NCBI GenBank assembly: GCA_964017185.1
Contig: OZ024877.1
Location: forward strand, 8,224,006 to 8,288,005
DNA from: Rugalucina vietnamica
Lineage: Eukaryota; Mollusca; Bivalvia; Lucinida; Lucinidae
Direction of reading: 5' to 3'
DNA: 64,000 nucleotides
This document shows positions 35,346-62,970 of the stretch, piece after piece. The notes under the pieces are model-generated. The model was given only the letters and a program-made list of their open reading frames with translations, was not told the DNA's origin and did no database searches. The first letter of the stretch is position 1, and each line of letters begins with the position of its first letter. A program made the position numbers and the translations under genes.

Positions 35346-35855
35346 CTTCTGTATTGGTTCACAATAGCTTCTGTATTGGTTCACAATAGCTTCTGTATTG
35401 GTTCACAATAGCTTCTGTATTGGTTCACAATAGCTTCTGTATTGGTTCACAATAGCTTCTGTATCGGTTCACAATAGCTTCTGTATTGGTTCACAATAGC
35501 TTCTGCACTGGCTCACAATAGCTTCTGTATTGGTTCACAATAGCTTCTGTATTGGTTCACAATAGCTTCTGCAATGGTTCACAATAGCTTCTGTATAGGT
35601 TCACAATAGCTTCTGTATTGGTTCACAATAGCTTCTGTATTGGTTCACAATAGCTTCTGTATTGGTTCACAATAGCTTCTGCAGTGGTTCACAATAGCTT
35701 CTGCAGTGGTTCACAATAGCTTCTGTATTGGTTCACAATAGCTTCTGTTTTGGTTCACAATAGCTTCTGTATTGATTCACAATAGCTCCTGCAGTGGTTC
35801 ACAATAGCTTCTGCAGTGGTTCACAATAGCTTCTGCAGTGGTTCACAATAGCTTT
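35320..35855. repeat. 22-bp minisatellite, about 24 copies
   Basis: Unit CTTCTGTATTGGTTCACAAT plus AG. A GCAGTGG variant is found at both borders, and TGTATTGG units fill most of the middle. The array grew from the last bases of repeat P. Confidence 0.95.
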
Positions 35856-41927: not shown

Positions 41928-43135
41928 CACTCCTACATCCATCGCCAGTTTTCAGAGTTTTTTGCTGTTTTTTCTAATCTTTAAGGTTGTCACAATAAAT
42001 TCTTATAAAGAAGATAATTGCTTTACTGCAGTGAGAAAACAAGATATAGAGCTTGAATCTGGCCACCTGTTTGTTTCAAGAATTAGATGAAATATGCCAT
42101 TAACTTCTATTTTGCTCTTTGTCTCAATATTAGACAATGGACACAGTGTCTGCTCAGACTAAATGAAACTCTGATCTGAGTCTATAAAGATATTAAGGTG
42201 GCATTTTTCCCATATTGAGACTTTCAGTTTTTATGCATGTGCATACTTTCTGCATTTTTACCAAACTATTTTAGGTACCCACATGTTGAGTACCCACTGG
42301 CAATTACTGAGCACACAGAGTGTGAAATTCTTTAATTTATGAATACACATTGTACATACAAATAACTTGAACACCAACAATTCCATGAGAACCCCAAGAC
42401 CACGCCAGTTTCATACGACCAGTTTCAGTCTTGACTCATAATTTAGGACCCAGCTTATTCTGAATACCCACAATTTTGTGTGATTGAATTTTGTGAACAT
42501 TCTTACAGTGAAGACCAACATAACTTGCCCATGCGTTTTGTAACAATACAATACAGTTCTAACATTTTCAATATCCCAAATTATTTATATGCACTTTTGA
42601 ATACCCACTTATTTTGAATACACTCAAATTTGAAGACTCATAAATATTTTGAGTGCCACAACTTTATGTAATAACATCTTGCTAAAATATCTATATCTAC
42701 TAATTGCCACCAATTTTCAGGGCCTACAAATTTGATCATCCACACTTTTGAATACCCACATATTTTGAGTACCAACAAAGTTGAAGACCACAAAATGTAC
42801 CTGCCCATAATTTGAGAAAATAAAGTTTAAAAAGCTTAAAGAAATTTAAAAGTGCTCCCAAATTTTAGATACCCACAATTGTGAGTAACCATATAAATTA
42901 GTACCCACAGACTTAATATATGAAATTTCTTACACAAAATGGTCCAAGCGAAAAGAAAAAAATCTGAAACCTCTAGAAATCTGATATCGTACACCTGGAG
43001 ACTGTTGCTCTTGTTATTTTCACAGTTTACTGATAATGATGATAAAAGCTGAAAGCTACAAGATATTTTCTGAGATTTATTGCCCAATTGTGCCAGCTCC
43101 ATTGGAGCTATATTTTGGCGATAGATGTAGGAGTG
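41928..43135. mobile_element. 1208-bp TIR element, TSD AATC, inserted in the LINE
   Basis: CACTCCTACATCCATCGCCA at the left. The right end is its inverse with one change. AATC lies at 41924-41927 and 43136-43139. Deleting one repeat and the element makes the LINE read ...NDIADSLLSLTRLFADD... in frame. The interior holds a worn array of TTTGAGTACCCACAA-like units and no transposase. CACT ends with a short duplication faintly recall CACTA/EnSpm; unproven. Confidence 0.85.
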
Positions 43136-44195
43136 AATCTGCGATATCGTTCACGTAAATAAGGAATAGCAGCGGGCCTAAGACAGAGCCCTGTGGGACA
43201 CCTGCATTTATAGGTTTCGGACTGGAGATGCATCCTCTAATTATAACCTTTTGTTGCCGTTCCGAAAGATAGTCGGTTAGCCACTTAAGAAATTCTCCAT
43301 CGATGCCATGCTGTTTAAGCTTGAAAATAAGACCTTTATGCCAGACGCTGTCGAACGCCTTTGAGACGTCGCAGAATACCATGCATGAAAATTGTTGATT
43401 ATCAAAACTTTGACAAATGTTATGGTAAATATCAATTAGTTGGAAAACAGTTGAGTGTTGTGGAAGAAATCCAGACTGGTATTTATATAATAGATTGTTG
43501 GTAAGTAAATGATTATACAGATTCTTGAAGGCTATGCGTTCTTGTATTTTGCTTAAATTGCTAAGAAGGGCGATCGGGCGATAATTTGAAGGGGAAGATT
43601 TGTCTCCCTTTTTTTGGAATTGGAACCAAACCGGAAGTTTTCCAGATATCGGGAAATATGCCTTCAGAAAAAGAGCGATTTAACAAAATTGCGAGCGGTT
43701 TAGATATGCTTTTGGAAACTGATTTTAGCATTCGATTACTAATTCCATCTAGACCATTTGCTTTGTTGGGATTTAGTGTTTGTATCAACAATTCTAGTTC
43801 GTTTTCAGTACAAGAGACTTGGCGAAGCGAATTTTGAGATTTACAAAGGAAAGGCGGCAAGGTCGTATTACGATCATCCACATTTGAAATTGAAGAAAAA
43901 TACTCATTCAAGCATTCGGCCTTCTCTTCATCAGAAAAATGAAATTGTTTCTCGCCGGATGGTAGTGTAGAACACAAAGGGGGGATAGCAGAAGATGAAT
44001 TTTCATTTTTAACGAAATGCCTCACAACTTGCCAAAATTTACGTCTATCATTTTTCTGGAAATCTGATATGAATAACTCAAGATTATTATAAAATAATTC
44101 TTTGGCTTGCTTTTTTTGATTATTGACTGTATTTCTAACTTTTTTGAATGATTTCCAATCGGAGGTTTTACCTGATTTTATTGCCTTTGTTTTAA
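43136..44195 (-). pseudogene. CR1-like LINE, linker and N-terminal half of RT
   Basis: Starts at the TTAA junction with KTKAIKSGKTSDWKSFKKVR, then FQKNDRRKFWQVVRHFVKNE and LNPNKANGLDGISNRMLKSV. A one-base slip in an A/G run near 43610 shifts the frame. Reading resumes with NYRPIALLSNLSKIQE, YQSGFLPQHSTVFQL, the motif CDVSKAFDSVWHKGLIFKL and GVPQGSVLGPLLFLIYVNDI, ending at the 1.2-kb insertion. Confidence 0.87.
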
Positions 44196-44512
44196 AGCCA
44201 CAGTATATTTTCAATCAATTTTATATGTGAAAAAAATTTTTTTTGGTCATAAGTTTTGTGCTAAAATGGTGGCTAAACATGAGCATTAAAATTCTCATTT
44301 ACATGCCTTAATTTGGGCCAAAATTAAGGGAAATACCTTAATTTTGCTTCATTTACATTTTTCGATTCTACCCCAAATATTATAAAGAGTTCTAGGCGTG
44401 ACTTAAGGCGGGGTACCGTAGTAGGCTTGCGCACTCACATAGTCTCGCGTCATCAACAAAAATATAAACAACATGTAGCCATGAGCGGTTCGTCAATGCC
44501 TGAATGCGGAAA

Positions 44513-44514
<2 letters not shown>

Positions 44515-44562
<48 letters not shown>
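44515..44562. repeat. Poly-A tract
   Basis: Nearly pure run of about 46 A. The lysine-rich frames it creates are artefacts. Confidence 0.95.
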
Positions 44563-44563
<1 letters not shown>

Positions 44564-45213
44564 TTTAAAATCCAATGGAATATGGAGGAGATGGGAAGCG
44601 GGGAACAGGAGGAATGTTATGCAGGTCCCATGACGAGGCGGCTTCAAAACTTCTGGCCATTAGGTAAGGGTACAGTGTCAGTTCTGCTTTTCAAACATAA
44701 AACTTAATAATAACACTCATGTATATTTTGCATTTCGTTTCACGCATCCTGCTTAAGGAGCCACTGAGATGCCCCATGGATGGGCGTATATATAAATCTG
44801 TAGAATAGCACCTTGTCCCCCATCCAATTTAGATATTGTATAACAGAACTTTGGAAGTGGAGAGACACAATTTTATTACATGTACATGTACTGTAGATCT
44901 ATTTTATTTGAGGTTCGATACGGGTATACTTACGACAAGTATTCGCTTCTCAAAGGGAAGTAACAGTTGAGATTTCGATTATCACAGATCATCACACTTT
45001 TCGATGCCTATAACCAGTAACAACAATGCATTCATATTATACATACCGGGTCATGTTGCATGATTTTATCGTTTTAGGCATTGTTAGTGAGTCAGACACA
45101 GATGCTGCCGAGATCTATTGGGAGGGCTGAGGTAAATTTTTCATTGAGTGATACATTTTCATTTATTTTCAATATGGTGTCCAATCATTTCGAATCTCGA
45201 CAATTTGTTGTTG

Positions 45214-45227
<14 letters not shown>
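44563..45227. other. No gene recognised
   Basis: Inside the TTAA unit; unassigned sequence. Confidence 0.4.

Positions 45228-45284
<57 letters not shown>
45218..45284. repeat. (TTC)n plus poly-T tract
   Basis: TTC repeats run into about 48 T. Confidence 0.95.
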
Positions 45285-45285
<1 letters not shown>

Positions 45286-45471
45286 TTCATTTCGTACCCA
45301 ATTACAACCATTCCCCATCAAAGTAATTTCGTAACCACTTTCATCATTTCCGCCCTAGCTAGCTGGTACTAAATGGTCGGTTCGTAACTAATTTTGTCAT
45401 TTTATACCTAGGTGTTTGGTCATTTAGTGCGTAGGTTAAAACGTGTTTGTTAACTTTGAGTCTCAGAAATA

Positions 45472-45905
45472 ATGGTAATTTCTCGGGGGGGGGGGGGGGT
45501 TACTACCTATATATGACGTAGTGGGGATGTGCCGCCCGAATAGCCCCCTTTTTCAGCCTCGCCAGATATATGAATGGGTGACCTTTTTCGTGTCAAAATA
45601 TGAATGGCCCCATTTTTCCATATTTAGTCTATGAATGACCAAATTTTTCGGACATCCATGTTTAAGAGCACTTTCTTTGCTGACATACGCAGCTCAGAAA
45701 GTCGAAATATTTGTATATAATTGTGTATAGGTCAAAATTTTGTACAATCAAATATATGAATGGGTCACTTTTTTCGAAGGCATGATATATGAATGGGTCC
45801 CTCTTTTCGATTACCAGGTATATGAATGGGGTATGTTTTAAAGTATCGGGCGGCGCGTCCGTACCAAAATTACCTCCGAGTTACCCCCCACCCCCGAGGG
45901 TAATT
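45472..45905. mobile_element. MITE-like element with GGTAATTT...GGGTTAC / GTAACCC-type ends
   Basis: Left GGTAATTTCTCGG with a long G run and GTGCCGCCCGA. Right TCGGGCGGCGCGTCC and CGAGTTACC...CCGAGGGTAATTTT. Inside, ATATGAATGGGTGACCTTTTTC-like phrases repeat four times, with the same ATGAATGG(G/C) core in direct orientation. Confidence 0.55.
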
Positions 45906-46069
45906 TTGAGTGCCAACCTAACTTAAGTTACGGTCATGCTCAACGAGTTAAACAGTTTTGCTTGATGCTTTACGTCACATTCAACAGCTACGGTCATGTC
46001 AGGACGGTGCCTCCAATTGTTTTGACTTCTTCAAAGCATTTGGAAGTCATGATATGCCCTCGTCGGATA

Positions 46070-46070
<1 letters not shown>

Positions 46071-46146
<76 letters not shown>

Positions 46147-46149
46147 CTT
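46071..46149. repeat. (CT)n microsatellite
   Basis: Pure CT run with two GTCTGT interruptions, then T-rich sequence. Confidence 0.95.
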
Positions 46150-46849
46150 TTTATTTTTTTTTTATTATTATTTTTTTTTTTGTTCTAATCCAAAACATGG
46201 CATTTTCTGTATTTTCCTTTTTCTTTCTTAATTTTTGGAGATTTTCTACAAAAACAAGAAAAAGCAGCAAAGCTGCGGGAGTTTAAATACTCTTGTTTCA
46301 TCCAGAGTTTAGGCAAAAACCAACAACGGGTGTCAGAAACATCAGTCCTTTCAGAACAATTTCAGTTACTGTTCAAAGCATGAGCAATCAGATTTGGTAT
46401 GCCATTCACTGATGTGAAGATGTAAATACACATGGAGTTGGCTATATGCCGGATTGTCCTCAAGGTTGCAGACATATGTGATGCGAGAGCACAGGTAAAC
46501 TGTATGCTCACTTTTTGAGCCAGAAGGCTCGGGTGAGCTCAAGTTGGTGTATTATGTTTGGCAATACTTAATATGACAGCTGATTTCCAACCTTTCCCGA
46601 AAGCATGTGGGTTATTTTGCAAAATTTTGACTTTTCTGTTCTTTTTTCCTCAATGGCAAGTGCCCGATGTGATGTTGGGATGCAGATCATAGTGATCACG
46701 ATGATTCTACACTACACAGGCTACATACTTTTCTATACTAAGTTTTACATGAATGTCTCATTACACAAACATCTCTCATTATTTGTCTGTAACTTGCACT
46801 TTGATTAGTTTCTGTCAAAGCACAAAATGATGTGTTAAGAACATTTTAA

Positions 46850-47970
46850 TCAGAGGACCATTGGTCCTAAGAACGCTCACCTGAAGCCTCATCTTAGAGC
46901 ATTGTCTTTTTGAAATGACTTTGACCTAAGTCACCTTGAAATGACTTTGACCAAAGTCACCTTGAATAATCTCATACCTTTATTCACTTCATTAGTTGTC
47001 TGCATCTGTCAAGTATCAGGACTCAGGTCTCGGGCTGCAATAGTTTCAAAAACATTCATTGTTTTCACTTTTTCCCCATTTAAAGGCCAGTTCCCAAAAT
47101 TTACCTTGCTGTAAAATAGGTCATGGTCATCATTGGGTCATCATTTGTACAACCTATGATGGGATAAGGTCCCTGATGCTTCATACCAAGCTTCGTGAAA
47201 ATCTACCCACTGGTTCTGGAGAAGAACATTTTTGAACATTAGTGAGCATGGTGGCCCGGTTGAGCTTTCGACCCAGATTTTGCACACAAAATGTTGTTCC
47301 CTCTAACATGGAGACCTTGGGTCAAGGTCAAGAAATGACCTTGGCCTTAATAAATTACACACCTTCATTGGCTCCATTAGTTGTCTGCATCTAGCAACTT
47401 TCAAGTCTCAGGCTGCTACAGTTTCCAAAATATCCATTGTTTTAGCCTTTTTCCATCTAAAAGCCTTTGTTTCCAAAATTGACCTTGCCGTAAAATATGT
47501 TAAGGTCATCCAAAGATCATCATATGAACAAACTATGATGGGCTTGAGTCCCCAATAGAACATACCAAATTTCGAGTAAATCTGCCCATTGGTTCCGGAG
47601 AAGAAGATTTTTGAAGCGTTTTTACCATATTTGGGTGTGTCATTTGACCAAGATATAGTGAACAAAATATCAATGCCACTACCCGAAAAGGCTCCACATA
47701 AAATATCATCTTTATCGGCCACATGATTTCTGAGAAAAACCATTTTAATATTAATTTAAATGGCATTGGGTCAAGGGAAAAATCCCTTGAACAAACTTTT
47801 GTTCCCCCTACCCATGGAGGCTCCACATAAAATTTCAACTTGATCGGCCATGCGGTTTCAGAGAGGATCTTTGAAAATGTGGACAAATGACCGACGACAG
47901 ATGGACGCCCAATCATGGCTATACTTTAAGCTCACCTCATGATCCTCCTATTGGCTCAGATGAGCTAAAA
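46850..47970 (+). mobile_element. Array element, diverged copy (family of 23394-24910)
   Basis: AGAGGACCATTGGTCCTAAG and CGCTCACCTGAAG open it; AAGCTCACCTCATGATCC / TTGGCTCAGATGAGCT close it. Internal units share TTGACCTTGCCGTAAAATA, GGTTCCGGAGAAGAAGATTT and CGGTTTCAGAGAG. It is older than the 23-kb copy. Confidence 0.6.
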
Positions 47971-48084
47971 TGGGTGCAGAAAGTCCCAGTCAGCAATGTT
48001 TCAGTCATGTCAGGGCGGAGCCACCTCACCCTGGATATTTACCAGTACTCTTGGGAGTTAATGTGTGTTGTTCAATGACAAAAC

Positions 48085-48165
48085 ATGGTACCTAAAGTGT
48101 GGATCTAACCTAGGACCTCTTGATTCAGAGCCCGATGCTCTACCACTAGGCCACCACGCTTCCCT
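48085..48165 (-). repeat. tRNA-derived SINE head
   Basis: Reading minus: GTGGCCTAGTGGTAGAGCAT (A box), then GGCTCTGAATCAAGAGGTCC and GGTTAGATCC (B box, one change from GGTTCGATCC). No complete acceptor stem, so a SINE promoter region rather than a tRNA gene. Confidence 0.6.
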
Positions 48166-48533
48166 TAAGAGAACTTTTTTTTTTACTATGTAGACAGAAC
48201 ATAGCTTTTGACTTTAATTTATAACCTGATCTTCATGAAAGAAATGTGCTGTATGTGGGAATGCCTGTCAGGACCATTTCATTATGAATCGGACACTATC
48301 GTCCAAGCTATAGCACCTGCACAAAATAAAACAGAACATAAATCCTTTTGTTGGTTTAGTTTGGTTGTGGCAGAACATCATTTTTTTCTGTCTCATTCTT
48401 GGACTGTCATGGTCATGAGAAAATCTTTGCTTTGTGGTTAACATTATAAAACCATTTTAATTCTCAATTCAACCGAGCATACAAATATCAGCATTTATAT
48501 ATATACTTATTAGCTATTCTGTTTATTACATTT

Positions 48534-48761
48534 GAGCCACTGCAAGGAAAAACAAACAATCTGCATAGGTGAAAACAAAGGCGCAGATCAGCAACTGCGA
48601 AGCTGATCAGCACCTTTGTTTTCGCTATACAGATAGTACAAAATTCCTCTACTTTCTAAATTCAAAATTTCCAGCCTCTAACCATCTTCTGTGACTGTAA
48701 AGCCTGATTTGTGTTGGACCTGGTCGAAACACAAATTGTTGGTTTTCTCACGAACATGCTC
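48534..48761 (+). mobile_element. MITE, family A, TSD ATTT (older)
   Basis: GAGCCACTGCAAGG start, CACGAACATGCTC end, ATTT on both sides. Part of the inner hairpin is deleted (GATCAGCAACTGCGAAGCTG). Confidence 0.8.
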
Positions 48762-48905
48762 ATTTAGCAGCTAGGACAACTGGCTGGCTTTGATGATTTA
48801 GATCTGAAACTGAAAGTCCCACAGACTTTGGCTAGTCCAATATTTATGAAGAAGAAAAATTTAAACTTGTCTGAGCTGTGATTGTTATGGTGTCCTGCTT
48901 CATTT

Positions 48906-49124
48906 GAGCCGTATCATGAGAAAACTGGATTTTGCCTATGCAAAAACAAAGGTGCTGATCAGCTTAGCAGTTACTGTTACTGTTTTCGCTACTCAGATAG
49001 TATAATTCCTTTTCTACTTATAGCCAAAATTTGAAGCATATAGCCTGCTTCTGTGACTGTACAGGCTAATTTGTGTCGCACCTGGTCGGAAACACCGAAG
49101 ACCGGTTTTCTCGCACCGCGGCCC
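48906..49124 (+). mobile_element. MITE, family A, TSD ATTT (older)
   Basis: GAGCCGTATCATGAGAAAAC to CTCGCACCGCGGCCC, ATTT on both sides. One hairpin arm is largely lost. Confidence 0.78.
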
Positions 49125-49493
49125 ATTTATACAGTTGATAAAGTTTTTAACGATTTATCATCAGAGAACAATAAGCCATCTTGAAGCTTTCTGGTTTGTG
49201 GAGTTAGTCATGGATTATCACATCCCCTGCCTCTGAACATGGTCATGCTGAAAGATAATAGAAATAATGCATAAGAAAGTGTTTGAGATGAAAGCTGTGT
49301 GACATTTTTATATAAATCAATCTTCAAACACAATTTTCATCAGCATCATAAGCTATTTTTTGCTCATTTATGCAGAAACATACTACAGTCTCAGTCTGAT
49401 CTGTTTCACAAATAATTTCACACAGTGGCTGTAATTTCACAACATAATCTTCATAAGTTATAACATTTCAGGGATATGCAGTCTGGTTTATAT

Positions 49494-49728
49494 GAGCCAC
49501 GTCATGAGAAAACCAGATTTTTGCCTATGCAAAAGCAAAGGCGCAGATCAGCTTTGCAATAACTGCGAAGCTGATCAGTCCCTTTGTTTTCCCTACAGGG
49601 ATAGTACTGTTCCTCTTATTTCTAAATCCAAAATTTCCAACCTCTAGCCATCTTCTGTGACTGCACAGGTTGGTTTGTGTCAGACCTGGTTGGAAACCCC
49701 AAAGACCCGTTTTCTCGCGTCGCAGCTC
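49494..49728 (+). mobile_element. MITE, family A, TSD ATAT (older)
   Basis: GAGCCACGTCATGAGAAAAC to CTCGCGTCGCAGCTC, ATAT on both sides, diverged hairpin. Confidence 0.82.
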
Positions 49729-50148
49729 ATATTATTCTTTGTCGCAAATCTCGAAGGCAAAGCTCATGTGTAAGCAGCCACTGTCATGATAAAATTGTGT
49801 ATTTTGCAAATGCAGAAAACACTGTATCAATGCAATATCAACAACACAGTATCTGCATAGAGCTATGATCAGTAGTACATCACATTTCTACAGTTATCCC
49901 CTTGCCACTGAGTTTCACAACTATTAAAATATTAATTTTTACTGTTTATTCCCAATAAAGATAAAACCACTTCAAAAATGGTAAATTAATTATAAATACC
50001 AAAGAAAGTGTCTGTTATCAAAATGTGCATGTGTGGTTCTTGGTTTGGAAAATGTAAGTTTGACAAATGACTGGTTAACACTCTAGCAGCCCATCTATTT
50101 ATCAAATTCTCACAGCCTGAGGGTGACAAACTTAACAATTTTAGTTTC

Positions 50149-50326
50149 TTTATTAAACTACTATAAAAAGTATTTAGAATCAGAAGTATACAAAAGATAC
50201 ATACATACCTAAAATACTGCTCACTGAATCACAAAAAGTCATGAGCTAGCTGTTCTGAGTACCGCATCAGCCAGGTTCTGCCCCTCTGCATCTTTCAACC
50301 AACCCTCCCAACCATTGGCTATTATA
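50149..50326 (-). CDS. Probable terminal exon of an unidentified gene (possible BH2-like motif)
   Basis: Acceptor GTCTTTATTTCAG precedes 50326. In phase 1 the exon reads IIANGWEGWLKDAEGQNLAD, then AVLRTASS and TGA at 50241-50239. AATAAA (minus strand) lies at 50154-50149, 85 bases after the stop: the make-up of a last exon. NGWEGWL followed by a short amphipathic helix resembles the BH2 region of Bcl-2-family proteins (N/RGW(D/E)GF), but 28 residues are too few to be sure and no membrane tail follows. Earlier exons were not located. It lies inside the TTAA unit, so it is either cargo or evidence that the unit contains host DNA. Confidence 0.45.
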
Positions 50327-50975
50327 CTGAAATAAAGACAGGAAACCTTTTTAAAAAGAGCCATATCATTAGAAAACATTTTATGCATTCTAAAATCGAG
50401 ACTTAGATAAGCTGCAGCAGCACGATAAACACAGCTACATGATCAATAAACAAAAAGATAGTACATTTCCACTGCTAACTCAATCCTATACTTCAGGCAT
50501 CTACCCAGTGCCTGTGGTTTTGTCTATCTATCTATCTCTGTATACTGCCACAGGCCCTCGCGGACATTCTAGGCAGGTGGCAGGTTTTCTTTGCATGTTA
50601 TAATGTTGCTTAAAATCCCAGTCAACAGCAAAGCTCATGTCAGAATGCATACATGTGACATCTTTTATGTATTTGTTTGGCATGTGGAGGAAAAAACCAA
50701 AGATACTTCGGAGAGAGAATGGGAACACAAACTGCTGTCCATACACCAGCTTTCAGAAACTGTGTTTTTCAAAATCTCACTTTTCTGAATCACCTCAAGA
50801 AAAATATCACCATAACATCCTTTTGTAACCTGTCTCGAAAAGTGCCGCAAAAAAAAAAAAAAGAAAAAAAAAAAGAAAAAAAAAAAATGAAAATCTGTCA
50901 ACTTATGAAAAAACTATGCCACAAATTTATTTTACTTTTTCACATGGTCATAGTGAGATTTTGAAAAACATAGTT

Positions 50976-52260
50976 TCTGGAGGATGGTGTATGGAGCGTA
51001 AAGACACCATCTAGCCTGTGGCTAGTCTTGCAAGAAAACCGATCGGTGATTCCTCTGTATGATATACACTGAATACAGCAGAGCCCTGGTATCCCAGTCT
51101 AGCAGATGGTGTATTTAGAAAAGACACAGAACATAGTTTCTGGAAGATGGTGTATGGACAGTAAAGACACCATCCAGCCAGTGGCTGGTTGAGCTGCCTG
51201 CAGCAGCTAGTGTATTTATAAAAAAAAACAAAATATAATTTCTGAAGGATGGTGTATGGACAGTAAAAAGACACCGACCGACCCCTGGTATCCCAGTCTA
51301 GCAGATGGTGTATTTAGAAAAGACACAGAACATAGTTTCTGGAAAATGGTGTATGGACAGTAAAGACACCATCCAGCCTGTGTCTGGTTGAGCTGCCTAC
51401 AGCAGCTAGTGTATTTATAAAAAACACAAAATATAATTTCTGGAGGATGGTGTATGGACAGTAAAGACACCTACTGACCAGCCTGTGGCTGGTCGAGCTG
51501 CCTACGGCAGCTGGTGTATTTAGAAAAAAACACAAAACATAGTTTCTGGAGAAAGGTGTTTGGACAGTGAAGCCACTGACCAGTCTGTGGCTGCTCAAAA
51601 TGTATGCCGCAGCTAGTGCATTTAGAAATTTTCAAAAGACACAAAACATAGTTTCTGGAGTAAGGTGTATGGACAGTGAAACCAGTGAAAATGTATGCGG
51701 CAGCTAGTGTTAATTAGAAATTTTCAAAAGACACAAAAATTAGTTTCTAGAGGATGGTGTTTGGGCAGTTGAAAGACACCGACCAGCCTGTGGCACACAC
51801 AGGCTGGTCGAGCTGCTTGCACGATAAAACTTGTGATTCAATGCATGCGCGGATATAGAAAATTTTCTCAGAGGGGGTCCAAAGTCCCAGAAGTGGTCTG
51901 ACGGAAAATTCCAACATGGCAAAAGTTAATAATCTGGCAATTCCAGGGGAGGGGGGACCCCCTGTCCCCCCCTCTGGATCTGCCCTTGCACTGACTGACC
52001 AGTGTATTTAGAAGAGCTGGTGTATTTAGAAGAGACACATAAAATAGTTTCTGGAGGATGGTGTATGGACAGTAAAGACACCAACCAGCCTGTGGCTGGT
52101 CGAGCTGCCTACGGCAGCTAGTGCAGGCAGCTAGTGTTTAAAAAGTTCAGAAATTTTCAAAAGACACAAAACATAGTTTCTGGAGGATGGTGTTACATAA
52201 TAGACAGTAAAGACACAGACCACCCACAGGCTGGTGCTGCCGGCTGGTCAAGCTGCCCTG
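50976..52260. repeat. Tandem array, ~105-bp unit around CTGCCTACGGCAG
   Basis: Units read CATAGTTTCTGGAGGATGGT, GTATGGACAGTAAAGACACC, CAGCCTGTGGCTGGTC, GAGCTGCCTACGGCAGCTGG, TGTATTTAGAAAAGACAC. Each unit holds two short hairpins (CAGCCTGTGGCTG and GCTGCCTACGGCAGC). A GGATCC-type MITE interrupts at about 51835-51995. Confidence 0.8.
51835..51995 (+). mobile_element. MITE, GGAT(C/A)CAGAAAATTTTC family, copy 1
   Basis: ATGCGCGGATATAGAAAATT at the left, then TCCAACATGGCAAAAGTTAA, CAATTCCAGGGGAGGGGGGA and a GGATCTGCCC end. Same family as 55368-55548 in the other orientation. Confidence 0.6.
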
Positions 52261-52659
52261 CTTGATAAAACTTGTGAATCACTGACTTGCAGTCTAATTG
52301 TTTGTGTATCGTCTACTAAGTCTGTTCAGCGTTTTACGTTCGTTTGAGCTTCTGCACAATTATTCACTTTCCCAATATCTTTCATTGTCAGGCTAAGTCA
52401 CTTTCTGTTTGACTAAAATCCGGACTTCAATGCATTTCCTCGGACAACTATCAAATTTAAAGCTCCATACAGAAAGCTTTGCAAAAAGATTCTTGATTTG
52501 TGGGTTCCTGCTGCCGCATGTCAGGCTTGAATTTTTAGAACTTTGTTGTCGCTATTAGGAGACCCGGAAATGCTCTGGTACTCAGTTTTGCGCAAATCTT
52601 GAGATTGAATCGATTAACTGGCGAAAGAAACAACAACTGACTTCTGGCAGTTAACACTC

Positions 52660-54390
52660 TTCCATAGACAGTGACAGGCCATCAGTCTCAGCAACCGAAT
52701 GACACTTTTATGTAGACAGTGAGGACATCCGTCTCAGGAACTGAAAACTGCTTTCCAGCAGTTTAAGAGTAAGCCATGCATCTAAGGAACCGAAAACTGC
52801 GTAACCAGCAGTTAAGACACTTTGACAGACAGTGAGGCCATCCATCTCGGGGACGGAAAACTGCCAGTAGGCAGTTAAGAAACTTGGATAGACTTTTTCT
52901 AGTGTTGGGTATCGGTCGCGAAAATCACTATCGATTTTCGGAGCACATTAGTCGATTGATTATCGATTGTACAATCGAAATGTATGTTCCCCTTACATTA
53001 ACCAGTGAAGTGATTAAAAATGCTCAGTATTTGACAATGTAGTGACAAGTCACTGCATCATGTCCCTTCTCTGTATTTAAATTGAACATAGCCAATATAT
53101 TAAGGCCACATTTTCTACAAATGATAAAGTGACCATGTGATAGAATATTGCTGTAGCACATAGCATAGAAAAAACCTAACTATAAACAGTGAAGATTGTC
53201 AAGTGATGCTTTAATAAGTGAATATTAACAATGCATTCAAGTCTAAATGAAGGCAGACATAAGGAGGCATTATTGTAACAAATGAATTGAATTTGTAACA
53301 ACATTTTATGTTAGTAAATGTTTTTACTATACACTCGTATTTAATTTCGATTAATCGATAGTGGAAAATTCCAATCGATAGCTACCGATAGAAGCTAGAT
53401 TCCGATAGTTATCGATTATTTCGATTAAATGGCACAACATTACTGAAAAGTGCCTACCTGCAGTTAAGACACTTTGATAGACAGTCAGGCTATCTGTCTC
53501 AGCAACCGACACTTTGATAGGCATTGACGCCAACTGTCTCAGTGAAGCCACCCATCTGAGGAACCGAAAACTGCCTATGGCAGTTAAGACGCTTTGATAG
53601 AGAGTGATGCCATCCATCTCAGAAACCGAAAACTTTAAGACACTTTGATAGACAGTGACGCCCACTGTATCAGTGAAGCCACCCATCTCAGGAACCGAAA
53701 ACTGCCTACAGCAGTTAAGACACTTTGATAGGCAGTGATGCCATCCATCTCAGAAACCAAAAGCTGCCTACGGCAGTTAAGACACTTTGATAGGCAGTGA
53801 CGCCAACTGTCTCAGTGAAGCCACCCATCTCAGGAACCGAAAACTGCCTACGGCAGTTAAGACACTTTGATAGAGAGTGATGCCATCCATCTCAGAAACC
53901 GAAAACTGCCTATGGCAGTTAAGACACTTTGATAGACAGTGACGCCAACTGTCTCAGTGAAGCCACCCATCTAAGGAACTGAAAACTGCCTACGGCAGTT
54001 AAGACACTTTGATAGGCAGTGATGCCATCGATCTCAGAAACCGAAAACTGCCTACGGCAGTGAAGACACTTTGATAGGCAGTGACGCCAACTGTCTCAGT
54101 GAAGCCACACATCTCAGGAACAGGAAACTGCCTACGGCAGTTAAGACACTTTGATAGAGAGTGATGCCATCCATCTCAGAATCCGAAAAAAACTGCCTAC
54201 GGCAGTGAAGACACTTTGATAGACAGTGACGCCAACTGTCTCAGTGAAGCCACCCATCTCAGGAACCGAAAACTGCCTACGGCAGTTAAGACACTTTGAT
54301 AGGCAGTGATGCCATCCATCTCAGAAACCGAAAACTACCTACGGCAGTTAAGACACTTTGATAGACAGTGACGCCAACCAAAATAGGAAC
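52660..54390. repeat. Tandem array, ~85-bp half-units around CTGCCTACGGCAG
   Basis: GAAAACTGCCTACGGCAGTT, AAGACACTTTGATAGACAGT, then either GACGCCAACTGTCTCAGTGA or GATGCCATCCATCTCAGAAA, alternating to make a ~170-bp dimer. Shares its 13-base palindrome with the 51-52 kb array. Confidence 0.85.
52902..53441. mobile_element. Insertion within the array, ATCGATA-rich inverted ends
   Basis: AGTGTTGGGTATCGGTCG with ATCGATTTTCG at the left. The right carries AATCGATAGTGG, ATCGATAGCTACCGAT and AACATTACTG, roughly inverted. The sequence has no match to the array on either side. No target duplication could be fixed; superfamily unknown. Confidence 0.5.
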
Positions 54391-54429
54391 ACAAAACTTT
54401 GGTCGTGCTGGCTGTGGCAGCTAGTGAAT

Positions 54430-55104
54430 GTAGAAAATGTGTTAAATGAAGAGTAAAACTTGTTTGTGTTAAACTTACACCTGTACGTTCACTTTCGAAT
54501 CACGACTTCCTCCTGAATTTGTTTCACGTTAAAAGTTAAATTCCTGATTTTACAACTTGTTTGTACGTCAGTTATCACTTTAAAGTCTCCGGCATCTGTA
54601 ATTACAACTGTCCAACAGCGAGCGACTCCAAATAGCTCTTGAAATCGCGAGAAACGTTCATCATTTGCTGCATTGCGTTAGATTTTCAATAATTATAGAA
54701 CCTTGCCGTTGCTACGGAGACCCGGAAACGGTATGGTACCCGCGTTTCGCATAACGTGAGATTCGATAAGCTGGTGAAAAAAAAAATATGATGGATCCAT
54801 TCCAAAACAGTATGGCCACCCAGTTCGGTCGATTCCGTATTTTATTTAGCAAATCATTTATTGAAAATGTATACATAAATATTTTGAAAAACATATTTTT
54901 CTGCAATTCATTTTATTTGATCATTTTTTTAAAACACCTTCGGTGTTTTTTTACGAACGCCTACGGCGTTCGTATTTGTTCGGCATGTGGCGGAAACAGC
55001 CGAAGACACTTCGGAAGGACAATGTGTTTACATACTAAAGACACCTCGACCGGCCAGCCTACGGCTGGCCGGTCGAAGCTGACTTCGGCAGCTGGTGTCT
55101 TTAG

Positions 55105-55105
<1 letters not shown>
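54430..55105. repeat. Second copy of the array-spacer module, with GC palindromes
   Basis: GGAGACCCGGAAACGGTATG and nearby sequence at 54700-54780 match 52545-52625. GCATGTGGCGGAAACAGCCG and AAGACACTTCGG at 54983 match 50683. Perfect palindromes ACGAACGCCTACGGCGTTCG(T) and GGCCAGCCTACGGCTGGCC follow. A poly-A tract of about 37 closes the block. Confidence 0.6.
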
Positions 55106-55143
<38 letters not shown>

Positions 55144-55367
55144 AGGTTTCGAAATATTGCTGGTGATCCTAAATCAATTGGTGATTGTTTGTTTGAGGCG
55201 GGGGTCTCGTCCCGACATGACTGGAGAACATACCGGCGACCGCAGGACTGGATGCCTTGTTGAAGAACACACTGCACGGCGGAAGTAGTTATCGTAGTTA
55301 TCTTGCTGCAGATCTGTCCTCTACCACTAATGTTGCTCGTTTGCACAAGATTACCTCATTGAAATTA

Positions 55368-55548
55368 TACATGGGCGGATCCAGAGTGGGGGGGGGGGGG
55401 GGGGGGGGAGGCAGGGGATCCGGACCCCCCCCCCCCCCCCCTGGAATTGCCAGATTATTAATTTTTGCCATGTTGAAATTTTCCGTCAGACCCGTTCTGG
55501 GAATTTGGACACTCCCCCCCCCCTGAGAAAATTTTCTGGATCCGTGCA
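55368..55548 (-). mobile_element. MITE, GGATCCAG family, copy 2
   Basis: On the minus strand, TGCACGGATCCAGAAAATTT, then CAACATGGCAAAAATTAATA and CTGGCAATTCCAG to GGATCCGCCCAT. Long G and C runs inside produce spurious proline/glycine frames. Confidence 0.65.
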
Positions 55549-56035
55549 TGTTATAGTTGTATTATATTATTCTTTTAGGCAAAGACGTACGGTGCTAACT
55601 TACACAGTAGAAGATGGTTTAATGCTCGGAGGTGTTCTAACTGTCCCGGATTATCTACGGTTAACTAGGACGAATCGTGGCGGACCGGGATAGAACCATA
55701 GCGCCACCGTGAACATGCATGGCAAGCTTGGACATTTCGGTGCAGAATTGGGCGACATCGGGATAAACCGTTCGAGCATGATAAACCGGAATGATCCATC
55801 ATAAACTGGGGGTAATTAAGACGACACCGTGCTATTCGACACAAGCTGGGTCTTCACCGGGACTGCTTCGTGGTGAACCGGGCATTTAAAAGTTTGCCCA
55901 CCGTGAAGCCCGTTTTGGGCCCGGTCGTAACATCGGGGTTTACCGAAGTACCACCGGGATCCACTAGCCTGCATAGTGACGACACTGTGTCAGAACACAG
56001 CAAAAACGTGGCCCCACCGGGTCCATCTTCATATC
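55549..56035. other. CpG-rich stretch, repeated CCGGGAT / CACCGTG words
   Basis: Markedly more GC-rich than its surroundings. GGACCGGGATAGAACC, ATCGGGATAAACCG and CACCGTGAAGCCCG phrases recur irregularly. No convincing frame. It may be a decayed short tandem array. Confidence 0.4.
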
Positions 56036-57325
56036 AGTGAAATAAATGAAGATATATATCAAAACTATACTGTGCAAAATAAATTTAGCAATTTTTGATG
56101 TTTTATAAATTTTTGATCATCTTAGAGCAATTTTGGACATTTCTTTCATTTAAATGACAAGAATAGGGTCTTAGGCACATTATAGGATGAATTTAAAAAC
56201 GCCATTATCTAAAGAGGTTTTTGGAGCAACCAAGAAATATAGAAAGGGTGTGAAGGCAAAATTCTAAACCAATGAACACAATGCAACAGCTGACTTTTGT
56301 TTAGTCCATTAGACACATCCTTATCAACGTTGTTGATTATGTGACAAATGAGATTGGTCATTTTCGGTACAAACTTTTCCAGCCGAAAAAAACGACGTCA
56401 ACGTGTCGTCAATTGGTCGACGGGTTACTTGGTTTCCATTGATTTTCAGAAAAACGAAACAAGACAGACAAAGCACAATGTAGCCAATACAGTGGCGAGT
56501 AACACTTGAAAGTTTCAGGGCGTTTCAGTTTTAACGCATCATGCTAGTGAGATAACGCTGACGTTAAACTCATTATTTTAGCTCATGTTATGAAGCCAAG
56601 ATAGGGCATTTTGTTTAATATATTGGTATGCACCAGGGCCCAGAATTACAATCTTCCAACCCGCACACCAATAGGAAAGTTAAACGCTAATAGCGATATG
56701 CTGAAACCCAGGGATACTAGTTTTGGGTAGAAAAGTCGGAAGACCAAATGGAATGATGCGGACAGTAGATTATGTTACAGTCATGTGCATTCAGTTGGTT
56801 TGATGATCTGGTTTTTACGTCCCAGTCAACAGCTATGATCGCACGAGGACGAGATCTTGGTTTAATGTCTCGTCCGAAGAACTATAGAAGCTCGAGGTGG
56901 AACACATGGCTATGTTTTGCCTGGCAAAACTACACCTAGATCCATGTAAAGGTCTATCTATGATACACGAATAATATGATTTGATATGTTTATAAAATGT
57001 TATGCCTGAATCCATTATATCATAGCAAATATGGCCCGACGAGTCATAATGCTACTGACAGGTATCAGTGACGTGCGCATGTCAATTTCGATATTTATTC
57101 CGTCTTTGATCTGTCTGTAGTCATTGTTGAGCTACTTGTGTGTAATACTGTTTCTAGCCTTTCCTTGCACGTGGGAATAAAGAGATTTTGAATTGACTTT
57201 GTACGCTGAGACCAAGGACGTCTGCTCCAGCTGCGTACGTACGACGTATCTATGGCGGTCCTGTGGCGTATGTGTGACTAGTCACATGTGTGGCCGTCTT
57301 TACAGAATGATGGACCACAATGCTG
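56036..57325. other. No gene recognised
   Basis: Unique-looking. GGGAATAAAGAGATTTTGAA near 57172 resembles the 3' end of a polyadenylated transcript or SINE on the plus strand, but no body could be attached to it. Confidence 0.35.
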
Positions 57326-58232
57326 AGGGGGGGGGGGGGCAGGACCCTTTTCTGTGACGTGTGGTTGGCCCTTTTTAAAGTCTGTGATTTGTGAAAAATT
57401 TAACTCTGTGATTTGTGACAGAGGTATTATCTGTGATGAGTGAAACACAAATTTAAATCCCTGTGATCTGTGATTGAAAATTTTCAAGTCTGTGAATTGT
57501 GATCATCATCATTCCTTGTGATTGTAAAACCAATGGTCTAAAAGTACATTAAAATCGCATACATGGACCTCCAGAAATATAAAATTTTCTTGGGGGAGGT
57601 CCCCCGAACCCCCCTTTAAACAATAAGAATACCCCATCTCATACCCTTAGCAACTTGGCTCTCATGATCACTCATGAATTTTTTTAACATTTTGTGACCG
57701 CCAGGTCTGATGACTAACAGAAATAAAGCTACGTATAGAATTATCATTTTCATTTTGAAGTTTAAGTCTGATATACTGACCAACACCAGAATAAACTAGT
57801 GATGCATATCATATTTAAGTTAACATGGATGTTTTTGTTATACTTTTTACTAAGTTTTTAGGCAGTTAGTAAAATGATTCCATTTTCCTCTGTACCACTG
57901 TGACTGAAAAAGTCTCTACCATACATGTAACATGATGTAACTAAGGCTAAGGTATTCTTATTTTACAAGTAACTATGCCATAATGAGTTAAAATGAGACC
58001 TTTCTTTGATACGAATAGTTAATTTTTAGTAGCTGAGAAGTTATAGGCTGTAAATCAGTCAATACAGTGCAAAAACATTGGCCAAATTGCTAAATTTTCT
58101 GTGATTACAAATATTCATTGTCTGTGATTTGTGAAAGCATCATTTGAAAACTCTGTGATTTGTGATTTTGTGTTTTAAATCTCTGTGATCTGTGACCAGA
58201 CCCCCATCCTGCCCCCCCCCCCCCCCCCCCCA
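57326..58232. repeat. Element bounded by poly-G and poly-C with CTGTGATTTGTGA words
   Basis: AATGCTGAGGGG... GCAGGACCC at the left and its approximate inverse TCCTGCCCCC...CAATGCTAC at the right. Both flanks carry direct CTGTGATTTGTGA / CTGTGATCTGTGA repeats, about 6 on the left and 4 on the right. Confidence 0.5.
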
Positions 58233-58337
58233 ATGCTACCTTTGTATTGAGGCTTTGATCGTTTTGCATTTTGGTCGCTTAGAAATCGATTGAATTTCAA
58301 AAATAAATCTTATTTTAAGTGCTTATTTTATGGTAAA

Positions 58338-58579
58338 GAGCTGCAGCAAAAGAAAAAACAACAACAATCTGCATATGCGAAAGCAAAAGCGCAGATCAGC
58401 TGTCCAGTAAATGCATAGCTGATCAGCACCTTTGTTTTCGCTACACTGAAAGTGCTATCCCTCTTCTTCTAAAGTCCAAAATTTCAAGCTTCTCTGAGCC
58501 TTCTTCTGTGGTTGTACAGGCCAGCTTGTGTCAAAGCTGGTCGAAATCATAGATTGTTGGGTTTCTCATGCGAAGGGCC
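58338..58579 (+). mobile_element. MITE, family A, degraded copy
   Basis: GCATATGCGAAAGCAAAAGC, GATCAGC...GCTGATCAGCACC and CTGGTCGAAATCATAGATTG align with the family. The terminal GAGCC/GGCTC have decayed and no target duplication remains. Confidence 0.65.
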
Positions 58580-58789
58580 ATATGTATAAATTGCTTATAA
58601 AATTAGTAAAATGCAGTTTGATGACACAAGAGCACAAACATATCTACACCGTTTTTACGTGACATATTACATAATCGTTACGTACACGTGGCGTATTAGG
58701 TGTACCTGCTGCGTTGCATTCTTGTGATTGACGTATGCACGTGGCGTTTCGGAACTGCGGCGTTATGGTACGTACCCGTTAAAATTGTT

Positions 58790-58960
58790 ACGTAGCACCT
58801 CAGTCTGTCAGTTGTGAAGAATGCGAGCTACTCTTTAACTGTTTACACGCTTAGTTCCGGTTGTTTCCGGGTCGACGTGGCTCATACTCCACAGACCACT
58901 TTATTCTCGTTTTCAGTAACCCGGGCATTGAGAATTTTGCGGTAAACGTAAGTTTTCTCT
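58790..58960 (+). promoter_or_regulatory. CpG-rich promoter-like patch with splice donor
   Basis: TTCCGG occurs twice (ETS-type core), with CpG-dense sequence before it, then AAAC|GTAAGT at about 58947. This could be a TATA-less promoter and non-coding first exon on the plus strand. No later exon was found. Confidence 0.25.
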
Positions 58961-59469
58961 GATTTTATTGCAACGCCATCCCGTATGAAGGCTGACCACA
59001 AAACACAACATTACTTATGGGAGAAAATATGACGTTGAGGTCATGTCATGATGTTGGCATAAAAATGAATGTGCCAACGTTCGGGTAGGTATTTTCAGTG
59101 AACAATGTTGCATGTGCAGAAATGAAGATCAGGGGAATTAATCTGCTATAAGAAGCTTGACCTTCGGATTTCCAATACCGGCGGGAGTTAGCTAGCTTAA
59201 TACCTGTTTTGACATCCAAGATAAAATCTATCGCCTAGGTAATATGCCCTTAGGCTTTGTTTGAATGCGCCGAGTTTGTCTAAATTGTTATGGTTTAGAT
59301 CTACCTGTAGAAAGGTACAAGTAGGAGATTTGTTCCGTTTTCTGAGTTTTGTTTTGAAATATGACTTTTGGATATCTTCATTGACAAATATATTTTATAT
59401 TCTATTTTGAAACGAATCAACTTTAGGTTCAACAGTTCAACATCATGGTTTTGATCTCGTAAACTTTTT

Positions 59470-59475
<6 letters not shown>

Positions 59476-59516
<41 letters not shown>
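59476..59516. repeat. Poly-A tract
   Basis: Pure A run of about 40. Confidence 0.95.
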
Positions 59517-59517
<1 letters not shown>

Positions 59518-60059
59518 CGCTTCTGCACAGACTGATCATCGATCTCTTAAACTTTCTATTTGAACGGAGTCATGTACATGCAACTCATGTATCAAAACGA
59601 CTTCGTTAACCTAACCACAGACGGAATAGTAAGTAGACGGAGTTTTTTTTTTTTTTTTTTTTTTTAATTCAGTTTACGTCCCTTTTTCAAGATTATTTCA
59701 GCTCATATGAGACGGGCCAATCAGTAGGTGGGCGAAAACGGGAGTACCCCGAGAGAAACGGGGCTCGAACCCACACCAGACAGCGGTGAGAGTTATTGTT
59801 TGTGCAGAATAAGAAGAGAAGTGATTGGTTTGTATATCAAAATAAAAAATAAATCTCGAAATAGTTTGATGTTGACCACGGATCCAATAAAATGAATATG
59901 ATTTTGAGACAAGAATAATATTCCTGTTTTGATTACCGTCTCGACATGTTGGGAACATTGTTATTTAGGACGTAACGAAACAGTAACTGACCGCTTTGAT
60001 TGCGTGGAGTATAATCAGCTTTTAACTAAATTTCATAGTAGCCATATGCATTCTTTCAA

Positions 60060-60210
60060 ATTTAGTTGCCGGTTTATAAGGGTCACTGAATGACTGATCA
60101 GGGTTTATTACCCGAAATTGCACAACATGGCTCACACTTCCTCCCCTTGAATTTTACTTTGTATTCACTGCTTCCAAATGATGTAAATATTATATTTTAT
60201 CTTACATATG
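60060..60210 (+). repeat. Dispersed repeat copy (as 16.6-17.1 and 36.5-37.0 kb)
   Basis: GTTGCCGGTTTATAAGGGTC, GATCAGGGTTTATTACCCGA, AATTGCACAACATGGCTCAC and TATTCACTGCTTCCAAATGA in the same order as the 16.6-kb copy. Confidence 0.6.
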
Positions 60211-60489
60211 TTTCATCGCTTTCGTGCATTCTGATCAATATCACACATTCGCTGCGGTCTCAGCAGTCTTAAAGAAATCTGCAGTATTTCTTATGTCCGG
60301 TCAAAATAATTGATATATAAGCTCAGCCGAAAGGAGAGAAAAAATAAATATATACAAAGTGATTTGCCGCTCGGACAGATTCTCCATATTTCCTTTCCCG
60401 GGAAAGGGGATACCTAGGCTGATCCGAGTGACAGTTCCCCGTATGGGGACAAAAAGCAATTTTGCCGGACAGTGGCTGTTTCACCACAT

Positions 60490-60772
60490 CAATACGGACG
60501 GCATCAATGACGTTACGTATTCCCGCAAGAGTGTTATTACATGCGATTTTTGTGGTCATACGACTTTTATAACATGACGTTATCCACTGGAAAACAGTCG
60601 GACGTCATAATCATATGATAAAATGCACTTCGAAGGCGACGAAATCCTATTTTAAAAGTCATATGATAAAACGAATCTTGCACTCGTGTTCATTTCATAT
60701 GAAATTTATTAAAGCTCGATTAATAAATTTCATATGAAATGACCACTCGTATAAGATCCTCTATATAGAGAA
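60490..60772. mobile_element. Palindromic MITE with TGACGTTACGTATTCCCGC block
   Basis: The block at 60494-60600 matches 990-1090. A palindrome at about 60667-60763 (CACTCGTGTTCATTTCATAT / ATATGAAATGACCACTCGT) matches 820-911. The parts are arranged differently in the two copies. Confidence 0.6.
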
Positions 60773-61316
60773 TGCAGAGTTGCAACAGAACGCGACGGTT
60801 TCTTGAACGGTCTTTCATGTACACGGCAGTCTGCGCCGATCGTTATCTTTCTTAATTTCCCCCTATGTAGCCTCTCCGTAAATAAAATCGATTATGTATG
60901 ACAAAAAACCAATTTGTTTAGGGCACACACTTTTGCCTTTCAAGCCATGGGGCAAGTAGCCATGAACTAGATTTGTCAATGCACATGATCATACTTTCAA
61001 ATATTTTATTTGACAGTAATCATAAAGTTAAATTACACAATTCCGTAATCATGTTTGGTCGTAAATAGAGTTTAGCACGTGTTTCTGTTTACTTCCGGTA
61101 TTCCAGAACTTTGCGCATAAAATTCGAGTGTGAAGGTGGGCAAAAGTATATATTTATCACTGTCACTCATTTAAGTCAAATTTTAATTAGTCTTTAATTG
61201 GCTTATCTGTAATGCATTTGGGAAGTTTTCGACAGATCCTTGTTCGGCAAACGAAGCACTAGAACATATAAAAAAATATCAAAATTGAAAAAATTAATTG
61301 AAAATATACTGTGGCT
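60773..61316. other. No gene recognised; right end of the TTAA unit
   Basis: AT-rich. The last 27 bases are the inverted terminus. Confidence 0.45.
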
Positions 61317-61388
61317 TTAAGCCTATCTCTCTTACGTGTTGTTCTCCTTATTTCTGAATTGTACCAGGGTTTATCATCTGGCCTTACA
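61317..61388 (-). pseudogene. CR1-like LINE, short segment between two insertions
   Basis: Minus strand: VRPDDKPWYNSEIRRTTRKR and DRL, the linker after the endonuclease, bounded by the foldback insertion on one side and TTAA on the other. Confidence 0.85.
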
Positions 61389-61940
61389 CACGGGTGGTAA
61401 ACAGGGGAACTAGCTCCGAAAAGAGTCAGCGGGATTTGGTTCCCTCGGCACATCCGAGCTAGCCCTCTCGGTTGGAAACTGGTAAACAAAGGTATGTCTC
61501 GAAGCATTTAATCATTATTTATTTCTTTATTAATGATCTAGTGAAAAATCCAGCAATGTAGTGCAGTTTAGAAATAATTTAGCACCTTTCGCTGCTAGGT
61601 TTGGTCATTGAAATATGCGCGGTTCGAACACAACTTTGACACGCCTGTAGCACACTCTGAGATTTTCGGCTCAGTGCGCTACAGGCGTGTCAAAGTCGTG
61701 TTCGAACCGTGCATATTTCAATGACCAAACCTGGCAGCGAAAGGAGCTAAATTATTTTCTAACTGCACTGCATTGCCGGATTTTTCACTAGATCAATAAT
61801 AAAGAAATAAATAATGATTAAATGCTTCGATACATACCTTTGTTTACCGGTTTCCAACCGAGAGGGCTAGCTCGGATGTACCGAGGGAACCAAATCCCGC
61901 TGACTCTTTTTGGAGCTAGTTCCCCTGTTTACCACCCGTG
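61389..61940. mobile_element. 552-bp near-perfect foldback element, TSD TTACA
   Basis: CACGGGTGGTAAACAGGGGA at the left mirrors the right end. The arms are about 265 bases each, nearly identical, and meet at CACTCTGAGATTTTCGGCTC. TTACA lies at 61384-61388 and 61941-61945. Removing element plus one repeat lets the LINE read KRVTVRPDDKPWY. Very young by arm similarity. Confidence 0.92.
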
Positions 61941-61945
61941 TTACA

Positions 61946-62970
61946 GTAACGCGTTTAGAAGGAATACAGGATTTAACCATTTCAATAAAAATATCGTTAA
62001 AAAGACAACTTGCTTCGTTAACAGAGCCGTGAGACAGGCAGGACCAGTCAAATTCGTTAATTTTCGCATTTAGGGAGTTATAATCGGCCTGGTTGTAAAG
62101 CCAAATAGTACGCTTAAATGGGCTTTTGGGTTCATATTGAAAGAGTAGAGTAATGAAAGTTGCCGAATGATCGCTAATATGATTAGGTACAGGAAATGTA
62201 CAGGCATCTAGAAAACTTAAGTCCTCGTTTATGACAATAGGGTCAAGAAGAGCATTCAGCCTTGTTGGTTCGTTAACTACATTCATCAAGGAATTAAATA
62301 GCATTATGTCTTTTAGACATTGAAAATCGGGGTTATAAAGATCTTCATTTAGGTCACCAAGAACAATAATATTGCTACAGATTTCCTGAATTAAAAAATA
62401 TAGCATCGGACGTGCGAGGACTATAAAAGACGCATGGTTTGTCCGATCTTTCCTGTACGGTGAGTCAAAATTTTCAAGCATAAGACTATCCGTTGACACT
62501 CCAATGTCTAAATGTGTTTCTGTCAGGCAAATAATATCAAAATCAAGGAATTGCTCTTTAATGTAATCCAACTTGTTTCTTACGCTTCTTATATTGCTAT
62601 GTAAAATCGAAAGTGAACCTTGGTGTAAAGTAGCAGGACCTGGGTTAGTTTCGATATCACCTGATTGCAATATTAGTAATATTAAAATCAACATGAATTG
62701 CGAATTAAGCAGATACTCTTTCATGTAGCTAGAGGTCAGAATACAAAATTTATCGCACAGTTCTAAAAAAGTTGCAAGATTGAATGAGAAATTGAGAAAA
62801 CAGAATCGGAATGTACATTTTCTACAGCATATATAAGTATTACTGTTGAACAGACCTATACAAGCACGCCACTGGTCTAGGCTGTTACCCATTTGGTAAC
62901 AATTTAACAACAACAAACATAAGTGCTTGTACAAGGGCTGTTGAGCAATAATACCATTTAGATGAACCAT
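61946..62970 (-). pseudogene. CR1-like LINE, 2A-like peptide and apurinic endonuclease
   Basis: ATG at 62970. An N-terminal ~100 residues, hydrophobic and Cys-rich, precede GDIETNPGP, matching the DxExNPGP signature of 2A ribosome-skipping peptides. Then LSILHSNIRSVRNKLDYIKE, CLTETHLD, a break, ILGDLNEDLYNPD and NHISDHSATFITL, the conserved endonuclease boxes. About 70 residues between YRKDRTNH and the GDLN box are missing compared with the family, so the enzyme is inactive. It ends at SKRVTV by the foldback insertion. Confidence 0.87.
62635..62665 (-). other. 2A-like sequence
   Basis: Encodes GDIETNPGP at residues ~103-111 of the LINE ORF. The final Pro would start the downstream product. 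2A-like peptides at the N-terminus of LINE ORFs are known from trypanosome, sea urchin and some mollusc elements. Confidence 0.8.

Follow-up and report, generated by a model that had tools for sequence, protein, structure and literature searches.

This report concerns a 17-kb transposable unit in a 64,000-nucleotide stretch of DNA from the lucinid bivalve Rugalucina vietnamica (GenBank assembly GCA_964017185.1, contig OZ024877.1, positions 8,224,006 to 8,288,005 of the forward strand), hereafter called the window, from whose first letter all positions are counted. The unit occupies positions 44,196 to 61,316, ends in inverted termini flanked by TTAA, and splits a long interspersed nuclear element (LINE) in two. 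We consider it very probable (roughly 0.93) that it is a copy of a non-coding TTAA family of about 6 kb that landed in the LINE and was enlarged by further insertions. The first-pass annotation of this DNA had favored a non-autonomous element of giant size, or else cargo DNA from the host, with a small element bloated by insertions as its main alternative. It is this alternative that is borne out, with a base element that itself measures about 6 kb and with inserts that may not all postdate the landing. The giant element is no longer needed, because siblings with the same ends measure 6.15–8.17 kb and lack the extra DNA at the same points; copies with these ends are mostly 5–8 kb long, and the extra DNA is made up mostly of bounded repeats.

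The unit measures 17,121 bp between its two TTAA copies. TTAA followed by AGCCACAGTATATTTTCAATyAATTTT starts at 44192 on the plus strand and the inverted counterpart ends at 61320, and the 27-bp inverted termini differ at one base, just as had been reported beforehand. The outer features are the following.

44192..44195, no strand: left TTAA target duplication (terminus match and at least 15 unbroken LINE sites)
44196..44222, plus strand: left terminal inverted repeat, AGCCACAGTATATTTTCAATCAATTTT (terminus match)
61290-61316: right terminal inverted repeat, the inverse of the left terminus with one difference
61317..61320, no strand: right TTAA target duplication (terminus match)
40759..44191, minus strand: reverse-transcriptase side of the LINE (RVT_1, E 2e-26), interrupted at 41928-43135
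61321..62970, minus strand: endonuclease side of the LINE (Exo_endo_phos, E 4.4e-06), with a palindromic element inside at 61388-61941

A terminus probe (TTAA and the 20 bases that follow it, with three mismatches allowed) matched twice in the window and never in 100 dinucleotide-preserving shuffles of it, and a composition estimate puts exact inverted 24-mer pairs at 3e-5 per 64 kb. Apart from the 31-bp inverted terminus, TTAA included, the left and right 1.1 kb of the unit have nothing in common. The exact 21-base terminus had no match in the viral or the prokaryotic contig collection, which is unsurprising for a eukaryotic-looking window, and scans of the window with Rfam (gathering threshold) and for tRNAs returned nothing.

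We can speak of a precise insertion with TTAA duplication into a young LINE because other copies of this LINE run unbroken through the joined site and the two halves in the window overlap at the join only. When the unit is removed, one TTAA is left and the LINE frame continues through the join as ...PWYNSEIRRTTRKRDRLKTKAIKSGKTSDWKSF..., in agreement with the earlier claim that the flanks are adjoining halves of one LINE open reading frame (ORF). The joined 263-base site was searched against the animal's own genome (a 1.09-Gb assembly of 47 contigs, used for all genome searches herein), giving 42 rows with 40 of the 50 candidates scored. At least 15 LINE copies cover bases 1–263 without a break at 95–99% identity, and among the matches listed two further rows, 20–263 and 1–231, also cross the site. 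The window's own halves come as separate rows (68–263 and 1–72), and at one locus (L041) the single TTAA was confirmed letter by letter. With inverted termini, duplicated TTAA and at least 15 unbroken sites, the TTAA-directed transposition into the LINE that had been proposed at first sight is upheld.

The LINE itself is not intact, as it carries the unit, two other inserts and a frame change near 43.6 kb. The insert at 41928-43135 has the ends CACTCCTACATC and a duplicated GATT. The one at 61388-61941 is a palindromic element that matches its reverse complement at 93% identity; TAC borders it on either side, and half of the element recurs at 30195-30505 with 99.4% identity. At 62635-62664 (minus strand) the LINE protein reads SGDIETNPGP, which we take to resemble a 2A-type self-cleaving peptide; 2A-type motifs occur in LINEs.

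A genome-wide search for the terminus and for further pairs, as the first-pass annotation had suggested, returned at least nine sibling pairs and at least 23 pairs of a sister subfamily. The terminus probe hits the genome 83 + 76 times, versus 15 + 16 for a backward control. The siblings, drawn from the first 100 listed places, are facing-end pairs (L009-L015, L018, L019) of 6,150–8,168 bp counting one TTAA; three further fetched loci (L016, L017, L020) have one end only. TTAA stands on both sides in all nine same-subfamily pairs, a result that is partly selected, TTAA being in the search pattern. Over the terminal 0.86 kb, seven siblings are 96.7–98.0% identical to the window copy, with L010 at 92.9% and L019 at 81.0%. 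The left part of the window copy's core (44196..46255) aligns to all nine at about 85–98%, L010 and L019 being the most diverged and aligning in part only.

The sister subfamily has a one-mismatch variant of the terminus and a different right terminus, and its ends are about 93% identical to those of the window copy. The end forms of the family are TTAA-AG(C/T)CACAGTA or TTAA-AGTGTCAGTA. Among the matches listed by a right-end search (40 of 1041 candidates scored), nine were ends of the window's subfamily, its own included, and 31 were sister ends. Twenty-three of these 31 have a partner among the listed left ends, in 15 cases at a distance of 5.16–6.13 kb; the others, again among the matches listed, lie at 6.5–14.9 kb, with one span of 41.7 kb. 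TTAA is duplicated in all four sister copies with both ends (L027, L028, L038, L040), for which similarity had served to locate the right end. Elements with this pair of distinct ends, mostly 5–8 kb apart, are found on many chromosomes. Swelling is common in the family: relative to the 6-kb sister copy L027, about 4 kb is extra in L039 (9.97 kb) and about 1.3 kb in L040 (7.35 kb), and six siblings (L009, L010, L013, L014, L015, L019) hold stretches of 0.2–2.2 kb that are missing from the shortest one, L012. Judged by eye, the L039 insert contains long LINE-like ORFs.

The unit measures 17.1 kb today because this core was, by sibling comparison, enlarged by three additions. Together they amount to about 11.2 kb and leave a remainder of 5.95 kb; about 0.3 kb that most siblings possess at 55228-55252 is missing from the window copy. 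In the list below, MITE stands for miniature inverted-repeat transposable element.

44196..46255, plus strand: family core, left part (alignment to nine siblings)
46256..55104, no strand: nested dispersed element of 8.85 kb with a Helentron-like structure (second copy L029, left and right end matches, sibling sites)
52895..53441, no strand: about 0.55 kb of this nested element, missing from L029 (copy comparison)
55105..57324, plus strand: family core, middle part, including a supposed terminal exon (sibling comparison)
57325..58231, no strand: nested 0.9-kb MITE-like element with G/C-run ends (AATGCT duplication and sibling comparison)
58232..59087, plus strand: family core, right-middle part (sibling comparison)
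59088..60610, minus strand: inverted stretch, about 1.4 kb not in siblings (59088-60492) plus about 0.12 kb of core
60611..61316, plus strand: family core, right part, including the right terminal inverted repeat (sibling comparison)

The largest addition, of 8,849 bp, sits in the poly-A tract of the core, at a site that is uninterrupted in seven of the nine siblings (L009, L011-L015, L018) and not alignable in L010 and L019. It has a second copy elsewhere (L029) with the same two ends and main blocks that are 95–98% identical, some stretches being present in one copy only; the segment at 52895..53441 would be either one more insert nested in the element or a piece that L029 has lost. Eight more copies start at the same base or one to two bases off. 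A search with the left end gave at least 42 rows including the window, at 84–98% identity and some of them partial (40 of 332 candidates scored), and one with the right end gave at least 40, the 39 besides the window lying at 97–99% (40 of 247 scored). Twelve of these 39 listed right ends have a partner among the left ends listed, 7.0–26.9 kb away.

By its structure, the 8.85-kb element resembles the Helentron or Helitron2-type non-autonomous elements described in PMC4067079. Alike are the A/T-run site without evident duplication (poly-A in the window, mixed elsewhere, mostly with A before the end), the strong palindrome near one end (z = -11.8), the small hairpin near the other, and the internal tandem repeats, whereas the small hairpin differs in being no more stable than shuffles (z = -1.05). 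The tandem arrays at 51.1–52.2 and 53.5–54.4 kb belong to this element. Tandem arrays and MITEs had been noted before as contents of the unit, and present they are, with the arrays and most of the MITE-like repeats lying within the inserts. On C1, three left ends of the 8.85-kb element follow each other in the same orientation (49882602, 49888538, 49894474), spaced by exactly 5,936 bases, perhaps a tandem array from rolling-circle movement.

The MITE-like element measures 907 bp and is framed by a 6-bp duplication, AATGCT at 57319-57324 and 58232-58237. Its site is uninterrupted in all eight siblings displayed, three of which show small changes there, and the element recurs, inverted and at a different place, in L013 and L014. 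As for the third addition, once 59088-60610 is turned back the match on the left grows from 188 bases to 304-306, and it does so in all five copies compared.

The ends of the family read 5'-AG...CT-3' inside TTAA in the window copy, the siblings and the sister copies. Both Kolobok and piggyBac duplicate TTAA, and according to PMC9587614 what distinguishes Kolobok is its 5'-RR...YY-3' ends. Because AG...CT falls under RR...YY, a Kolobok-type assignment seems to fit better than a piggyBac-type one, and the family is provisionally filed as non-autonomous Kolobok. The closest parallels are the T2-MITE and full-length Kolobok elements of Xenopus, which share the TTAA duplication, short inverted termini and, in full-length copies, the kilobase scale. 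All ten full-length elements have AG ends, with lengths of 6.8–13.9 kb in rows of Table 5 of PMC6004289, so the initial statement that TTAA elements usually span a few kb does not hold for them. They differ in terminal sequence and in encoding a transposase, where the scanned ORFs of the TTAA family have none; with about 6 kb of non-coding DNA, the family in turn exceeds MITEs by far in length. KolobokP, known from bivalves as well as other animals (PMC9587614), is alike in TTAA, RR...YY ends and short inverted termini, and differs in its long terminal direct repeats; no transposase or His-Me nuclease was found in the family's scanned ORFs. This architecture is excluded because the unit has no direct repeat between its two ends, which have nothing beyond the 31-bp inverted terminus in common.

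The unit resembles piggyBac and Teratorn, a giant derivative of it (PMC6431247), in TTAA target duplication and large size; the unit's ends are RR...YY, and neither a piggyBac transposase nor viral genes appeared among the ORFs scanned. The same paper has transposition falling off above 6 kb of cargo, constructs that moved 100–200 kb, and Teratorn copies of 41–182 kb, a precedent for size by itself.

For the coding content, ORFs of at least 110 amino acids were listed in the window copy and in its nine siblings; the scan covered 19 ORFs of the family, with shorter ones and the copies L038 and L040 outside it. None of the 19 family ORFs (five window, four sister, ten sibling) matched a transposase in Pfam, and the genome was not searched for a partner; for piggyBac transposase in particular, no Pfam match was seen in the 19, with ORFs under about 110 amino acids outside the scan. 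A few weak matches to unrelated families all stayed below curated cut-offs, and we know of no Pfam model for Kolobok. The absence of a transposase from the interior, remarked on earlier, holds for the five ORFs of the unit that were scanned (0/5). A terminal exon had also been announced for the interior, with no position given. The candidate that we took for it, at about 55.56–55.69 kb, lies within the core shared with the siblings and its ORF has no Pfam match, and we see no support for a host exon.

Put together, a copy of a non-coding, TTAA-targeting family of about 6 kb landed at a TTAA within a young LINE and duplicated it, presumably through a transposase acting in trans that, to go by the 5'-AG...CT-3' ends, was probably Kolobok-type rather than piggyBac-type. 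The core, by comparison with the siblings, has grown by the Helentron-like element in its poly-A tract, the 0.9-kb MITE-like element and the 1.4 kb of the inverted stretch, and the simplest order places most of this swelling after the landing in the LINE. Several points weigh against this account. The superfamily is read from the ends, with no transposase in the 19 ORFs and no autonomous partner found, and the 1.4 kb at 59088-60492 has yet to be assigned to any repeat family. Sister end pairs of 41.7 kb (C3:7040293-7082025) and 14.9 kb (C6:51805202-51820111) exist. Lastly, the substitutions private to the window fail to mark the inserts as younger than the landing, with a slight lean in the opposite direction.

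This last point bears on the most serious rival, in which the element moved as one enlarged unit of 15–17 kb, with the 8.85-kb insert and perhaps others aboard before it entered the LINE. The private substitutions number 7/1388 in the LINE (0.50%; 5/1046, 2/275 and 0/67 against three comparison copies), 15/1978 in the 8.85-kb insert (0.76%, five copies; 17/2009 with four) and 38/3427 in the core (1.11%, three copies; 23/2157 with five). The insert is thus not below the LINE (p = 0.40) nor apart from the core (p = 0.25), and the core exceeds the LINE at p = 0.048 (0.09 with five copies). Such values are upper limits on the time since insertion, do not decide the order, and may instead reflect an unsampled source copy.

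That a copy can move with an insert aboard is suggested by two siblings, L013 (C9:13114068-13121131) and L014 (C9:13126948-13134015), which lie 5.8 kb apart in inverted orientation. Over 7.06 kb the two match at 99.6% identity (three mismatches, ten gap openings), and the nested 0.9-kb element occupies a matching position in both, whereas their 1-kb flanks share short stretches only (115 bases at 85% and 37 at 86%). Apparently, this is a recent local transposition of an insert-carrying copy, an inverted duplication with sharp TTAA ends being far less likely. Yet no second copy with the 8.85-kb insert at this place was seen, as none of the 41 other listed places of its left end falls within the 32 listed family spans, and we regard the one-piece jump as unlikely, though worth keeping in mind. 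If it were true, non-coding TTAA elements in this genome would carry complete members of other transposon families along without losing their mobility.

An assembly artefact joining separate loci might be suspected from the many repeats and homopolymer runs in the unit. We give it very little credence, since the LINE halves fit exactly at one TTAA as in the at least 15 unbroken copies, the nested parts begin and end where other copies do, and the unit lies within a 62.7-Mb contig. The capture of host DNA by a pair of compatible transposon ends, for which large size and the missing transposase could speak, is the least credible and is rejected, as family core makes up about 6 kb of the interior and lies between the same pair of ends in nine siblings, and most of the remainder is the dispersed and the MITE-like element, only the 1.4 kb at 59088-60492 being untraced.

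With the enlarged 6-kb copy as the preferred explanation, a single genome shows how a unit bearing perfect marks of a giant transposon can come about, as non-autonomous copies of about 6 kb take up other mobile elements. For elements that lack a transposase the family is large, and it is fairly recent; one pair apparently moved with a nested insert. For scans of other genomes, this calls for caution: a split target, with its duplication and inverted ends, is proof of the outer insertion but not of a one-piece move of the whole span.

Elsewhere in the window, a 668-amino-acid ORF with a BTB domain at 10613-12616 (plus strand) is perhaps a host gene; a protein search gave six relatives, the first being the window's own. 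Tandem arrays outside the unit lie at 5419-8748, 9102-9894, 33266-34096 and 35314-35854, with periods of about 187, 168, 38 and 22 bp.

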